Source: a virus. Taken from it: a stretch of DNA of 22,313 nucleotides. Below, in pieces: positions 13,486 through 22,313 of the stretch (position 1 is its first letter; each line of letters opens with the position of its first letter). The notes below the pieces were generated by a model that made no database searches, was not told the DNA's origin, and saw only the letters and a list, made by a program, of their open reading frames with translations. A program made the position numbers and the translations under genes. The stretch spans positions 1-22,313 of IMG/VR virus record IMGVR_UViG_3300025264_000130. One strand, written 5' to 3'.

Positions 13486-13940
13486 TAAAAAATCCTCGCA
13501 TATCTGAAGTGATCTGAACCATCAAAACCATAATGTTTCATCAATCCTTCGTTTTGTAAACCAAGCCATGAAGCAAACTTTAAACCTATTTTAAAGTCAG
13601 CTCTTACAGCTGTTTGTACTCTTTTTATATTATTTTCTTTTGCTAGTCTTGCAAAATTTTTCTTAATAGCTCTGGCAATAACTAGCGGGTGATTCCAAAC
13701 TTTACTTGTCGCTAACACCCAACCTTCTGCCACACCATCCCAAATGATTTTCATACCTGCAGATGCAATAGGTTCGTTATTAATAATACAAGTATAAGCT
13801 AAACCATTCTGTTCTAACTGCATAGCATCTCCATCATATTGTGCATCTTTATCCATAAGAACGTGGTTCATTTGATTAGCAAGAATGATCTTACCATGAG
13901 TTGAGATATAAGGAACTATTTGTAATAAATTTTTAGTCAT
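13485..13940 (-). CDS. GNAT-fold internal virion protein A, T7 gp13-like
   Basis: A 151-residue protein in the place of T7 gp13 (138 residues). The order of elements is that of an acetyltransferase fold: a central strand with NNEPIASAGMKIIWDG, then a helix (HPLVIARAIKKNFARLAKEN), a strand (IKRVQTAVRADF), and a C-terminal FASWLGLQNEGLMKHYG motif like GNAT motif B. The acetyl-CoA pyrophosphate loop (Arg/Gln-x-x-Gly-x-Gly/Ala) is not visible, so it is probably structural rather than an active enzyme. T7 gp13 helps assemble the internal core, and the same role is likely here. It overlaps the nozzle gene by eight bases. Confidence 0.75.
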   Translation of the reverse strand: MTKNLLQIVPYISTHGKIILANQMNHVLMDKDAQYDGDAMQLEQNGLAYTCIINNEPIASAGMKIIWDGVAEGWVLATSKVWNHPLVIARAIKKNFARLAKENNIKRVQTAVRADFKIGLKFASWLGLQNEGLMKHYGFDGSDHFRYARIF

Positions 13941-16494
13941 TGGTTTGTAACTCTGGGTATAAAGATAATACTGTTAAAGGTAAAGGTTGAGTTTGTCTAA
14001 CAAAGATAAAGCCATCAGTATCGTAATTACCTCTAAATTCTACAGCTTTATCCCCAGTAAACACAGGTATACCTTCATCCATAGGATCAGATGATGTTCT
14101 AAATGGTATTCTTTCCATGTTACTTAAAGATTCTCCAACCTCAACACCAATAGATTCAAATAATCTAATTGTAATTTCAAATATTCTTTTTGTCTTACCT
14201 TGTGATGTACCATTTTGTGAACCAGCATCTAGTCTCATCGTTTGTAATATGGATTTGTAAGCTAAACCTATTTTAACATTAGTTGCTGAACGATCTAATG
14301 TAACTGAACCACTTGATACTGTTTTATCAGGATGGGTTGCACCATCTGCTAATATAGAAACTGTTTGTCCTTCAAGGTGATCTAAACCTGAAATAGTTGT
14401 AGCAGCTGAACCGCTATAAGCTAAAGCACTATCTAAAAAATTAAATGTTGTATTATCTGTTATTGTAAAGTCAAAGTTATTAATAAATTCTACAAACCTT
14501 CTTGTAGCACCATTGATTGTTCTTTTAACAATAACCCACGTTTGATATTCAGAATCATCTGTTGGTATAACTGAAACACTTTCACATACTGCTTTACCTT
14601 CGTCAGTTTTTGCTAATCTAACATCATCGTCTAAAGATGTAATAGTTAAAAATCCTGTAGACAATGGTGATGTCTCTGTAATGGTAACGACATTACTGCT
14701 AACTGTTGCTGTAAAATCAGAATCAGCATTTATTAATGTTTGTAGATTGGTTGCTGTTTGGTTGTTACTAGATGTAGTATGAAATTTACCAGTCGTAGAA
14801 GATGTAGCGGATGTAAAAGTTGTCGTTGTTCCATCTGCTTTTGTTAAAACTATTCTTGTACCATCAGCTATGTTTGCATAATCAGTAACTGTAATTGTAG
14901 CATTACCAAATCGACCACCAAAAATATGTCTGTGCCAAGCTGTAACTTGTTGTTCTCTTTGATAAGTTAAACCTATAAGCTCACCATCATTTCTAACTCC
15001 CCAAATAATTTGATTAGGTTCTTGTTGATAAGCTAATTGTGTTAGTCCACCTTCAGTAATATGTTCTGCAAGTATTGTCATATCAGGTGCAATGTAACCA
15101 TCAACATCAAAGTTATAAGCTAGTTCTCTAACTTTTCTTTTAGCACGTTGAAGAAATAAAGTTACGTTACCTACTGCAATAGAATCTACATTAGCTGCAC
15201 CATGGTTAGATTGTTTTTTAATTAATATATTTGTTGGTGTGATAGCACTATCTGTACCACCTCCTGATACTGTAAACTCACCACCAGCTGTACCAAGAAT
15301 TAAAGTTCTTGTAGCTGTCATAAATCTAATTGCATTAACTTGGTTAGAAGCTATGGTATAAATAATTGCATCGTCATCGGCTACAGTACCACCAATGTTA
15401 GCATCCATGTTTTCATAATCACCTGACTTTGAAAAGAAAATAGTTTGTGGTTGTTCACTTGTTCCTGCAAACACTAATCGTTGTTCAAAAAAAGTAACAC
15501 AAGAAGGATGTCCTGTAGTATCTGAAAAAGCTCCTAGTCTCCAATCTGCTGTAGCAGTTGAAGCACTTAAAGTGGAAATAATTGTAATAGTTGCGTTAGT
15601 TGTATCAGTAACTCCAGTTATCTTTGCATAACCACCATGAATAAAAACAAATCTACCAACGTCTGTAGAAAGAAAACCACTACCACTATTAATACCAGCT
15701 ACTGCAGAAGCTGCTAATGATACACCAGTTCCTATTGCTGTAGCTCCAGGATTTAAAGTTGTTGTGGTTGTGTTAGCATCTTGCATTGGTCCTTTAGTAA
15801 AATCTACATCTGTTAATGTCCAAGACGTATGACCTGTACGAGATAATTTTTCTACTTCGTGTGAAGGATGAGTAATGTACATAACGTCTGCTGATTGTGC
15901 AAATTTTAAATCAAAAAGTTGTGCAGTTGTGTAAGGTGTTGTAATTTCAAAAACTTTATTAGATACACCACCAGAACTATAAGCAGTAAATCCTGTGCTA
16001 TTTATATCTACTGCATCTTTATCTTGTAGTTCAAATGTATTCGTTGTTTTATCTGCAACTAAAAATCTTTTACCATTCACTTCTGTCATACCTGAAACAC
16101 CAGTAATAACAACTTCATCACCATTGTCATAACCATGACTTGTTGCTGTTACCACAGCAGGATTAGCTTGAGTGATTCCAGAAATAGTTTTGTCGCCTTC
16201 TAAAACAGATCCATCATCTTTATAAACTCTTATTTTAAGATTAGAAAACTCAAGCATATACGTTTGAGTTGTAGAAAATTCAAAAGGGATTAATCTTGTT
16301 TTGTTAGCACTACTTGCTACTTCAGCTACAAAGGTAGTACCTGATCTTCTTGCTGCTGCACCATGTGGATAAACAATAAAATTTTCTAATCGTTTACAAC
16401 TTGATGAATACTTGGTTAAATCATTACGACCATCTAAACGTGGTGAAAGCTCTCCACCTGTAAAGTTGGTCAGCTGTGCTGCAACTCGTGCCAT
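13933..16494 (-). CDS. Tail tubular protein B (nozzle), T7 gp12-like, with inserted domains
   Basis: An 853-residue nozzle protein (T7 gp12 has 794), forming the distal tube of the short tail. The start MARVAAQLTNFTGGELSPRL, the segments YPHGAAARRSGTTFV, VFEITTPYTTAQLFDLKFAQ, TFFEQRLVFAGT and WVIVKRTINGATRRFVEF are typical of the family. Two likely inserts are visible: residues about 108-178 resemble an E1_FCCH-type beta module (TATSHGYDNGDEVVITGVSG), and residues about 529-625 form another beta module between WHRHIFGG and ESVSVIP, which lie next to each other in simpler homologues as I recall them. Such modules often decorate phage tails. It lies three bases from the tail tube A gene. Confidence 0.9.
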   Translation of the reverse strand: MARVAAQLTNFTGGELSPRLDGRNDLTKYSSSCKRLENFIVYPHGAAARRSGTTFVAEVASSANKTRLIPFEFSTTQTYMLEFSNLKIRVYKDDGSVLEGDKTISGITQANPAVVTATSHGYDNGDEVVITGVSGMTEVNGKRFLVADKTTNTFELQDKDAVDINSTGFTAYSSGGVSNKVFEITTPYTTAQLFDLKFAQSADVMYITHPSHEVEKLSRTGHTSWTLTDVDFTKGPMQDANTTTTTLNPGATAIGTGVSLAASAVAGINSGSGFLSTDVGRFVFIHGGYAKITGVTDTTNATITIISTLSASTATADWRLGAFSDTTGHPSCVTFFEQRLVFAGTSEQPQTIFFSKSGDYENMDANIGGTVADDDAIIYTIASNQVNAIRFMTATRTLILGTAGGEFTVSGGGTDSAITPTNILIKKQSNHGAANVDSIAVGNVTLFLQRAKRKVRELAYNFDVDGYIAPDMTILAEHITEGGLTQLAYQQEPNQIIWGVRNDGELIGLTYQREQQVTAWHRHIFGGRFGNATITVTDYANIADGTRIVLTKADGTTTTFTSATSSTTGKFHTTSSNNQTATNLQTLINADSDFTATVSSNVVTITETSPLSTGFLTITSLDDDVRLAKTDEGKAVCESVSVIPTDDSEYQTWVIVKRTINGATRRFVEFINNFDFTITDNTTFNFLDSALAYSGSAATTISGLDHLEGQTVSILADGATHPDKTVSSGSVTLDRSATNVKIGLAYKSILQTMRLDAGSQNGTSQGKTKRIFEITIRLFESIGVEVGESLSNMERIPFRTSSDPMDEGIPVFTGDKAVEFRGNYDTDGFIFVRQTQPLPLTVLSLYPELQTND

Positions 16495-19576: not shown

Positions 19577-19825
19577 TTATTTTCCTTTTTCATTATCATT
19601 TTGTAGCATTGCTTTTATAAATAGAAGGATGCTACGTTGTCCTTCCATGTACGCACTCTCATGACTATCACCTTTTACATTGGTAGTCGTATGATGGTGG
19701 CATCTTTTTTCTAAATCAGACATAACTTGTTTGCCTTCGTCTGTATTGAATATGTATTGGTAGTTTTTTTTTAAATCTTGAACATACTTTTCAAAATTTT
19801 TTTCTTTGTCTTTTGCTTGACCCAT
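19577..19825 (-). CDS. Bbp19-like small head-region protein
   Basis: An 82-residue hydrophilic protein with YQYIFNTDEGKQVMSDLEKR, an HHHTTT segment, and EGQRSILLFIKAM near the end. A Phe-x-Thr-x-x-Gly-x-x-Val/Met-x-x-Asp-Leu motif followed by Glu-Gly-Gln-Arg marks the Bbp19-like family, found in many phages next to portal and scaffold genes. Its role is not known to me. The ATG overlaps the TAA of the portal gene (TAATG), so translation is coupled. Confidence 0.7.
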   Translation of the reverse strand: MGQAKDKEKNFEKYVQDLKKNYQYIFNTDEGKQVMSDLEKRCHHHTTTNVKGDSHESAYMEGQRSILLFIKAMLQNDNEKGK

Positions 19826-21453
19826 TATTCTATATCAGCATTTGCAACAGCTTTGGCTTCTTCAGGTAAGGCTTTTGCTAGTGGAGCTATATCTCCTCCT
19901 GCTTTTGCTACCTGTTGTAATTGTTGCATCTGCATTTGCTCCTGTTGTTGTTGTTGTGCTTGTTGTCGTTCTGCATTAACTTGACTTTGTGATTTTAATA
20001 TCTTCTGTGGCACACCAACTATATCAGCTAAATGTTTTACAAGATTATCAAAATTAACATAATCAAATACAGGAGCTACATTAGCAAGTGATCCTAGAAT
20101 TTCAATAGCTCTCATAATAGATTGTAACTCTGTGGATTTCTGTGCTTTAGCTAATGGTGAAACGTATTCAATTTCTATATCCTGACCTGATAAAAATTCA
20201 GGTGCTGGGGGTAATTGATTGTTTCTTAATAGAATATTAAATACTCTATCAATTAATGGTTTTAATAATTCAGATTGTAATCTGCCTAAGACTGGTCCTA
20301 ACAATCTCATCTTCTCTTCATTACGTTGAATAACTTCTGTTGCGGTCATTTGTGGTCCTTGTTGCATCATAAGTTGATTAACGTAGAACACACCTCTAAT
20401 ACTATCTCTTCTTTGCTGTTCCATATTTAAACCTAGAGGATTGTTTGCACCAATGTTTAAAGGTTCAATTCTATCTCTTGTACCTGATCTATAAAAATTT
20501 AATCCACCTGGTACAGTTCTAACTGGTAATAAAAAACCATCATCAGGAACTAATAGTGGTGGGTCTACTTGTTTCTGTGCAGCTTTGATTGTTGTCTTTG
20601 CCATTTCATTTAGCATCTTAACATCTGGCAATGCTGTCATTGCAGGTGATCTTCCATAAATTTCATGTGAAGCCTTTAGGTATCTAGGTACAACAAACGG
20701 AAACTCTTTATAACCTGATACAGATAATTCATTTCCATTTTTATATTCCATGTATACCGATTCGAATGGCATATTCTTTTTATCTTTTTTGTTAGGATTA
20801 AAATCTGATCTTGGATAAACTGCGTGTACAATTTCTATTTCTTTGTATGGGTCTTTCTTTTCCATAACTAAAATATCTTGTGATACAGAAGCACCAAACT
20901 TTTGTACAATAGCTCGTGCTGATAGTTTAAATTTTCTATAGATGGTATCTATTCTACCTTTATCATTTTCCGCAATATAAACTTCATCAATATGTCTTGT
21001 AGAAAATTTTATAAAATCTTCATCATCTTCTTCAATAAACATTGCTGCTGTACCAAAGGTAATAAGGTCATGATACAATTCAAATATTTCTTGTTGAAAG
21101 TTTGATCTATTAAATGCTGTGTACATTGCATCAGTTGCAGACTCTAACCAAAGTTTAGCTTCATCTTCGTTATCTATATTCTCTTGTTTAAATCTTAAGG
21201 TAAACCAAGGTGTTGATGGGTTTGTAAGCATACCATGTAATGATGCTGCTAATAATTCTAAAGATTGTAAAGGGGAACTATCAAAGATAAGTTCCATTCT
21301 TTTATCGCCACGACTTCTTTTTTTTGTAACGTCTGATTTTCTTGGCATCATGTAGTCCGCTACTTCTTGCCAATGCGTTTCCCAGTTTTGTCTTTGACCT
21401 GCTAGTCTATCGAAACGTGATAATAATTTTTTTGTTAAATCTGTTTTTGCCAT
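19825..21453 (-). CDS. Portal protein (head-tail connector), T7 gp8-like
   Basis: A 542-residue dodecameric portal at the capsid vertex (T7 gp8 has 536). It starts MAKTDLTKKLLSRFDRLAGQ and shows the family segments WQEVADYMMPRKSDV, YGRSPAMTALPDVKMLNEMA (about residues 262-282), KTTIKAAQKQVDPPLLVPDD, QQGPQMTATEVIQRNEEKM and GPVLGRLQSELLKPLIDRVF. The C-terminus is Gln-rich (QVNAERQQAQQQQQ, then QMQMQQLQQ), from repeated CAA/CAG codons. AGGA in the last codons of the upstream small gene is five bases before the ATG, which overlaps that gene's stop. Confidence 0.95.
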   Translation of the reverse strand: MAKTDLTKKLLSRFDRLAGQRQNWETHWQEVADYMMPRKSDVTKKRSRGDKRMELIFDSSPLQSLELLAASLHGMLTNPSTPWFTLRFKQENIDNEDEAKLWLESATDAMYTAFNRSNFQQEIFELYHDLITFGTAAMFIEEDDEDFIKFSTRHIDEVYIAENDKGRIDTIYRKFKLSARAIVQKFGASVSQDILVMEKKDPYKEIEIVHAVYPRSDFNPNKKDKKNMPFESVYMEYKNGNELSVSGYKEFPFVVPRYLKASHEIYGRSPAMTALPDVKMLNEMAKTTIKAAQKQVDPPLLVPDDGFLLPVRTVPGGLNFYRSGTRDRIEPLNIGANNPLGLNMEQQRRDSIRGVFYVNQLMMQQGPQMTATEVIQRNEEKMRLLGPVLGRLQSELLKPLIDRVFNILLRNNQLPPAPEFLSGQDIEIEYVSPLAKAQKSTELQSIMRAIEILGSLANVAPVFDYVNFDNLVKHLADIVGVPQKILKSQSQVNAERQQAQQQQQEQMQMQQLQQVAKAGGDIAPLAKALPEEAKAVANADIE

Positions 21454-21689
21454 TATTTTCCTAGTAAACTTTTTCTACCTAAAGTAACTGTTTGATCTTC
21501 TATACCTTTAGGTCCTGTTATAATTGTCATTGATCTACCTTTAGCTTTTGTTTTTCTTGAATCATATCCATCCATGCTAGTTGCTGTTGCTTGAGAAACT
21601 TCTGCTGTAGTAGGTGATGCTGCTATAGGTGCAGGGGGTTTCGGTGTAGTAATAAATCTTTTAACTGCTCTTGCTGGACTTCCTCCCAT
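21453..21689 (-). CDS. Small basic virion-assembly protein 3, gp7.3-like position
   Basis: A 78-residue basic protein starting MGGSPARAVKRFITTPKPP, with a Pro/Ala-rich N-terminal half, then KGRSMTIITGPKGIED and a C-terminal LGRKSLLGK. The TI(I/L)TGPxGIE box and the end (K/R)K(S/T)LLG are shared with the 73-residue gene two genes upstream. The T(I/L)LTGxxG pattern followed by KTLLG is one I recall from small proteins before the portal in many podoviruses. T7 gp7.3, a tail assembly and host-range protein, lies in the same position, but homology to it is not shown. The portal gene overlaps its stop. Confidence 0.65.
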   Translation of the reverse strand: MGGSPARAVKRFITTPKPPAPIAASPTTAEVSQATATSMDGYDSRKTKAKGRSMTIITGPKGIEDQTVTLGRKSLLGK

Positions 21690-21690
21690 G

Positions 21691-22005
21691 TTATGTTCCT
21701 AAAATACTTTTTTTACCTAATTTATAACCTACTTCAAATTCTTTAGGATTTAATTTTTTATATTTATTTTTTTCAGTTGTTGTCATTTTTTTATACAAAC
21801 CTGTTGTTTTAACATCTTTTAATTTACCACCTGTTTTTGCTACAAAAGTTTTTCTAGCAGCTGTTAATTGTTCAGGTTTATCTCTAATAATTGATGGACC
21901 TATTCTAAAACTTTGTCCGTCTTTAGTTTTAAGAGTTACATTTTTTTTACTATAATCTACATCTGGTCGTTTTAATTTTCCAATCATTGCTCCATTTGAT
22001 CCCAT
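21691..22005 (-). CDS. Small basic protein 2 of the portal-upstream triplet
   Basis: A 104-residue Lys-rich protein starting MGSNGAMIGKLKRPDVDYSK, with VTLKTKDGQSFRIGPSII in the first half and a C-terminal YKLGKKSILGT. It shares the MG(S/G) start and the end GKKSILG with the two flanking small genes but lacks their TILTGP box. Its high positive charge could serve DNA or tail binding. AGGA of the upstream gene's GlySer codons is seven bases before its ATG. Function unknown. I list it as part of one small-gene block. Confidence 0.65.
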   Translation of the reverse strand: MGSNGAMIGKLKRPDVDYSKKNVTLKTKDGQSFRIGPSIIRDKPEQLTAARKTFVAKTGGKLKDVKTTGLYKKMTTTEKNKYKKLNPKEFEVGYKLGKKSILGT

Positions 22006-22006
22006 A

Positions 22007-22228
22007 TTATGATCCTAGTAAAGTTTTCTTTTCTGTTTCAGGCTCTTCTTCAATACCTAAAGGTCCAGTTAAGATAGTTGACTTTCTACCTTTTCTTTTT
22101 CTTTCTATCTTTGCTTGTTCCGCTGCAATTCTTGCTTTCTCTTCTGCAGACACTTCAGTTGATGGCGGTGTCGGCAAAGGTTGTACTGGTGGTAGTGGCG
22201 GCATTTTTGGTGAAAATAATGATCCCAT
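22007..22228 (-). CDS. Small protein 1 of the portal-upstream triplet
   Basis: A 73-residue protein starting MGSLFSPKMPPLPPVQPLP (Pro-rich), then a charged helix (SAEEKARIAAEQAKIERK), a RKSTILTGPLGIEE box and the end KKTLLGS. The start at 22228 was chosen because AGGA lies nine bases upstream, because the two following genes also begin MGS or MGG, and because an earlier ATG at 22249 has no ribosome binding site and would lie inside the upstream gene's end. It aligns well with the 78-residue gene in its C-terminal third. Likely a virion or tail-assembly protein. Confidence 0.65.
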   Translation of the reverse strand: MGSLFSPKMPPLPPVQPLPTPPSTEVSAEEKARIAAEQAKIERKRKGRKSTILTGPLGIEEEPETEKKTLLGS

Positions 22229-22229
22229 A

Positions 22230-22313
22230 TTATATAATCCTGTATTCATTATCTGCTATATGTTGTGGAGCAGATTGTCTAGTGTTAATTTCTTGTAAAC
22301 CAACAGACAAGTA
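22230..22313 (-). CDS. C-terminal fragment of an upstream gene
   Basis: The only open frame reaching the right edge on the minus strand reads 27 residues ending NEYRII, then TAA, which ends two bases before the ATG of the 73-residue gene. The Arg-Ile codons supply the AGGA of that gene, as elsewhere in the window. No product can be named. The other two minus-strand frames are closed here by TAG and TAA, which supports this one. Confidence 0.5.
   Translation of the reverse strand, partial: YLSVGLQEINTRQSAPQHIADNEYRII

Follow-up and report, generated by a model that had tools for sequence, protein, structure and literature searches.

When the last codons of a gene encode a conserved protein ending and also lie where the ribosome would bind to start the next gene, it may be asked which of the two roles keeps them. 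This question is raised by P1, P2 and P3, three small genes directly upstream of the portal gene in the stretch of DNA analysed here, referred to as the window (22,313 nucleotides, IMG/VR virus record IMGVR_UViG_3300025264_000130). The late genes on the minus strand of the window are those of a podophage closely related to pelagiphage HTVC010P, and its portal has 89% identity to the HTVC010P and HTVC034P portals. A first-pass annotation of the window proposed that the Leu-Gly ends common to the three proteins may be conserved in part as translation signals, and that the (K/R)K(S/T) preceding them reflects true common ancestry. The features concerned are:

22238..22241, minus strand: AGGA in Arg-Ile codons (not Leu-Gly) at the terminase end; presumed Shine-Dalgarno (SD) sequence of P1
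22007..22228, minus strand: P1, small pre-portal protein of 73 aa, ends KKTLLGS; phrog_831 member
22055..22078, minus strand: box TILTGPLG of P1
22013..22021, minus strand: Leu-Leu-Gly codons of P1, TTA CTA GGA; their AGGA (22013-22016) presumably serves P2 as SD
21691..22005, minus strand: P2, 104 aa, ends KKSILGT; no family match and no TILTG box
21697..21705, minus strand: Ile-Leu-Gly codons of P2, ATT TTA GGA; their AGGA (21697-21700) presumably serves P3 as SD
21453..21689, minus strand: P3, small pre-portal protein of 78 aa, ends RKSLLGK; phrog_831 member
21504..21527, minus strand: box TIITGPKG of P3
21459..21467, minus strand: Leu-Leu-Gly codons of P3, TTA CTA GGA; their AGGA (21459-21462) presumably serves the portal as SD
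19825..21453, minus strand: portal (head-tail connector), matching PF12236 and phrog_332; its start overlaps the P3 stop

Direct reading of the minus strand confirmed every feature that had been described for the three tails. P1 ends ACT TTA CTA GGA TCA TAA and P2 ends AGT ATT TTA GGA ACA TAA, in each case with AGGA 7 nt 5' of the next ATG (at 22005 and 21689, respectively), and P3 ends AGT TTA CTA GGA AAA TAA, with AGGA 5 nt 5' of the portal ATG at 21453, the P3 stop and the portal start overlapping as TAATG. The AGGA reported before the first gene is also present, within the EYRII ending of the terminase (22241-22238) and 9 nt before the P1 ATG; here it is formed by Arg-Ile codons, so a ribosome signal can be spelled by other residues. 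With gaps of +1, +1 and -1 nt and AGGA 5-9 nt from the ATG, these are compact junctions of the SD-assisted kind. Random 17-mers with the base composition of the window have a mean anti-SD duplex energy of -1.8, whereas the four AGGA sites reach -4.0 to -4.2, a stronger pairing than chance would give, and we infer that these sites serve as SDs in vivo. Of the 37 junctions between annotated late genes in HTVC010P, 13 contain an SD-like word within the upstream coding sequence, nine have one that is intergenic or over the stop codon, and 15 have none; an SD in the coding sequence of the upstream gene is routine here.

To avoid circularity, relatives were sought with a tail-free profile, in which everything after the TxLT..G box had been removed from the family alignment, in loci gathered through the portal alone. 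This search found 217 unique proteins, 216 of which carry LLG (ILG in two) 0-3 residues from the C-terminus; in those 216 tail-keeping relatives the last Leu-Gly is invariant, and the residue following the Gly varies across relatives. In phiV10 and 80 phages closely related to it, the pre-portal protein has the end KTLLGQ, its LLG encoded for instance by CTG CTT GGT, and in phages of the phiV10/epsilon15 type the next gene has a separate intergenic SD, CGGAG or CGGGG, although the phages found by the phiV10 portal scan are near-identical and give little independent evidence. All 38 distinct portal-selected sequences of the DC33-like clade (49-69% GC) have LLG, their Gly codon being GGC, GGA, GGT or GGG. 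(Limnohabitans phage DC33, PQ492659.1, our locus L162, is recorded as Inoviridae despite a podophage portal region of the PF12236 type.) In GC-rich prophages of Mesorhizobium and other hosts, LLG is retained even where the nearest start is more than 25 nt away; these loci came from a degenerate DNA pattern that itself requires LLG, and so prove the existence of such ends, not their frequency. AT-rich LLG cases with a seemingly distant next gene were rejected as artefacts of the 50-codon threshold, most of them adjoining shorter open frames or a contig end. Because relatives keep LLG where translation cannot benefit, the ending is a real protein motif, the residues of which are not kept on account of the ribosome site.

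The choice of codons is another matter. Almost every AT-rich relative has AGGA at the spacing of an SD. When expected values are computed from each locus's own Gly usage, the terminal Gly of genes with an adjacent start at below 38% GC reads GGA in 244 of 303 genes where 102.5 would be expected (2.4-fold), and at above 58% GC it is at background (7 against 5.7 expected with adjacent starts, 0 against 1.0 with far ones). The Leu codon preceding the tail Gly ends in A in 215 of 220 cases. GGA is used at the tail Gly before Ser (73/74), Gln (30/31) and Glu (24/24); its share falls to 40-54% when the next residue is Lys, Arg or Gly, in which case pairing with the anti-SD remains available through AGGT or a following GGA. 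As the sequences are related, changes were counted on a portal tree of 120 tips, on which the Gly codon of the pre-portal LLG has gained or lost GGA at least 10 times while LLG stayed constant. Codon selection is clear for P1, the Gly codon of which has 5 changes, tied for the fewest of 20 conserved portal Gly codons (range 5-27), and moderate for P3, with 11 changes in total and lower values for three of the 20 controls. The selection is far from extreme: synonymous resampling showed a small gain in SD energy (-5.23 against -4.80) and was set aside as a main argument. Extra selection on the AGGA bases in AT-rich pelagiphages is supported by these counts.

Part of the GGA excess may be due to inheritance or context, given that the Gly of the TILTGP box is also rich in GGA. 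Of 95 pelagiphage sequences, 85 have GGA at the first Gly of this box (window 22055-22078 and 21504-21527), where it has no apparent SD role; for Gly-Pro in the portal the figure is 82 of 280. In some relatives (window 13933-16494 and similar clades) LLGG tails use AGGCGGA, though AGGAGGA would pair better, a pattern resembling avoidance of a very strong SD in front of the portal.

The proposal that translation signals maintain the C-terminus is thus upheld for the AGGA codons and fails for the Leu-Gly residues themselves: given distant-start LLG ends and synonymous change at the Gly, Leu-Gly neither depends on an adjacent downstream start nor is bound to unchanging AGGA bases, as the DC33-like clade and the repeated GGA switches in pelagiphages attest. 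If Leu-Gly were kept mainly as codons for the next gene's ribosome site, protein function being secondary, the GGA enrichment and the near-constant placing of AGGA in AT-rich relatives would follow, but LLG persists with non-SD codons, beside a separate intergenic SD or far from starts, and the terminase end makes its AGGA from Arg-Ile. Moreover, an SD dictates xxA-Gly at most and leaves (K/R)(S/T)Leu unexplained, and in HTVC019P, a phage of the same host, the small protein in the corresponding position lacks LLG, and no AGGA precedes the portal. The homologues largely refute this explanation, which we consider very improbable.

How far the three proteins share an ancestor is a separate question. 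The TI(L/I)TGPxGIE box is common to P1 and P3 only and, as the first-pass annotation held, the likeness extends to both protein and DNA (8 of 11 residues, about 25 of 33 bases). Both proteins match the 70-position profile of phrog_831 over most of its length (P1, E 1.6e-17, positions 2-70; P3, E 5.8e-12, positions 11-69), and this shared membership supports descent of the two from one ancestor. P3 overlaps the portal start, a position of the phrog_831 type; a portal lies downstream on the same strand within 5 kb for 174 of 258 family genes found by pattern, in loci that are partly truncated. P2 matches neither phrog_831 nor any other family in profile searches. At the position of P2, HTVC010P has a 202-bp annotation gap between its two LLG genes (L159:2438-2639), and all that follows P1 directly is a frame of 16 codons; P2 is either a lineage-specific insertion in the window lineage or was lost in HTVC010P.

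The tail is nevertheless found on bodies other than that of P1 and P3. ORFs ending in (S/T)(L/I/M)LG plus at most three residues number 568 of 5421 within 3 kb upstream of a portal on its strand, 25 of 9135 on the remainder of that strand and 12 of 21664 on the opposite one, a descriptive count that takes in loci found via the LLG family itself. Among unique ORFs lacking the box, the corresponding figures are 31 of 3957, 3 of 7404 and 8 of 16743. Degenerate boxes are present in about ten of these 31, and another is a spurious frame of 30 residues; the remainder form several groups, none linked to the box family by phmmer, including the P2 family (eight sequences, window P2 among them) and short basic proteins such as ...KKFTLNYPDLTINKKTLLGQ. 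In the complete genome of HTVC010P the tail is found on two pre-portal genes only, and in phiV10 on gp3 only, plus one antisense frame. In locus L372 it is attached at a different place of a P2-like body. The [ST]LLG tail thus appears nearly confined to the pre-portal cluster, on several apparently unrelated bodies including that of P2, and neither its confinement nor its sharing is explained by the ribosome site, since AGGA fixes at most xxA-Gly and not (K/R)(S/T)Leu. Common descent is supported for P1 and P3 through phrog_831, but (K/R)K(S/T) does not on its own establish it for all three proteins, because P2 and other boxless bodies with no detectable homology share the tail.

Two further accounts of this sharing have to be weighed. 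All LLG-tailed proteins might be diverged copies of one ancestor, the tail having come down with the whole protein and not as a module. This would agree with the family and box shared by P1 and P3, with the degenerate boxes kept in many boxless hits, and with the fast divergence of small disordered proteins. However, phmmer joins neither the P2 family nor several others to the box family, and the different point of attachment in L372 fits such descent poorly. The low-confidence structure models also differ, P2 being partly helical (mean pLDDT 64, no fold match) and P1 largely extended apart from one helix. No meaningful match to a solved structure came from single-sequence or profile searches. 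We regard whole-protein descent of every tailed protein as rather unlikely. Alternatively, the tail could be a C-terminal signal for a protease or chaperone of the host or the phage, acting in stability or maturation rather than docking. C-terminal protease signals are short and hydrophobic, as is this tail, and its position is fixed relative to the C-terminus, with 0-3 residues after the Gly. But its carriers are phages and prophages of widely differing bacteria, and it is essentially restricted to the pre-portal cluster, a distribution for which a phage-encoded partner is a better fit than a host protease, and this account seems improbable.

We favour an explanation, to which we assign a probability of roughly 0.7, in which two layers of selection act on the same nine bases, protein function selecting the residues and translation selecting the codons. 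The protein layer would be old and widespread: (K/R)-(S/T)-Leu-Leu-Gly would be a short linear motif, 0-3 residues from the C-terminus, carried by small proteins just before the portal in HTVC010P-like and epsilon15-like phages and in many prophage podophages. Most likely, we infer, the tail anchors or addresses these small proteins, as components of the virion, to one shared partner on the portal-core-tail axis. The translation layer would be local to compact, AT-rich pelagiphages. Because the next start there usually lies 4-12 nt after the Gly codon, the Leu-Gly codons fall at SD distance and are biased to xxA-GGA, and AGGA would act as the SD of the next gene. More tentatively, (K/R)(S/T)LLG might be a general C-terminal address tag that brings unrelated small pre-portal proteins to one shared virion site in many podophages, new cargo being recruited by gaining the tail.

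The two selective forces on these bases can thus be separated, residues for the protein and codons for the ribosome, and poorly annotated small pre-portal proteins, both phrog_831 members and their unrelated neighbours, gain a shared and testable mark. Were the tail a virion address tag, the small proteins that abundant ocean phages package and eject could be predicted from it, and searching near portals for a simple C-terminal pattern would be a way to find uncharacterised ejection proteins.

The closest model for the putative docking is T7, in which short segments hold two small pre-portal proteins of the virion, gp6.7 and gp7.3, on the axis: gp6.7 rings the portal barrel via an N-terminal loop, and the C-terminal loop of gp7.3, which starts Lys-Lys, is anchored in the nozzle (PMC11784390). 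Like gp6.7 (PF17570, phrog_1391) and gp7.3 (PF11653, phrog_1320), the window proteins are small, Pro/Lys-rich and pre-portal, and the N-terminus of T7 gp6.7, MCFSPKIKTPK, resembles that of P1, MGSLFSPKMPPLP. T7 gene 6.7 (L454:665-931) ends RKSAFGGKK, its Gly-Gly codons holding the GGAGG of gene 7 in the same dual use, and in a Klebsiella-phage gp6.7 (L469:301-522), which has the end KSALGG, TTAGGAGG precedes the next gene. Most sampled gp6.7 proteins lack the LLG end, as do HTVC019P and P-SSP7. The pre-portal proteins of the latter two (L640:17271-17483 and L641:16404-16685) have a common MC...P-rich start and Ser/Gly/Asn-rich tails, not LLG, which by eye are nearer to the T7 gp7.3 end. Position, N-terminus, a mid motif and the KSAFGG/KSALGG ends suggested P1 and P3 as gp6.7 homologues, a candidate that profile comparison and an HMM test did not support. 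P1 and P3 have no Pfam hit, and so match neither PF17570 nor PF11653, and do not match phrog_1320; the T7 gp6.7 profile search returned phrog_1391 only; hhalign gave a probability of 0.4%; and in the shuffle-controlled test the shift in score over shuffles was slight. Weak links run from phrog_13568 of P-SSP7 to P1 (E 0.012), HTVC019P (E 0.009) and a Pasteurella-phage gp6.7 (E 0.005). By reasoned analogy, the comparison suggests that the window proteins may work like gp6.7 and gp7.3; identity with gp6.7 is not claimed.

Within phrog_831, a family of unknown function that includes gp3 of epsilon15 and phiV10, P1 and P3 share the pre-portal place, the TxLT..G box and the KTLLG-type end. Whereas phiV10 has one copy and an intergenic SD, AT-rich pelagiphages have two or more tandem copies and add unrelated proteins with the same tail, the codons of which would serve as SD. 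As in other compact or overlapping SD-assisted junctions, a known kind associated with translational coupling (PMC12548453), the gaps in the window are +1 to -1 nt and the SD lies in the last codons of the upstream gene. The mechanism itself is not unusual; in the window the presumed SDs fall in the codons of a conserved protein tail.
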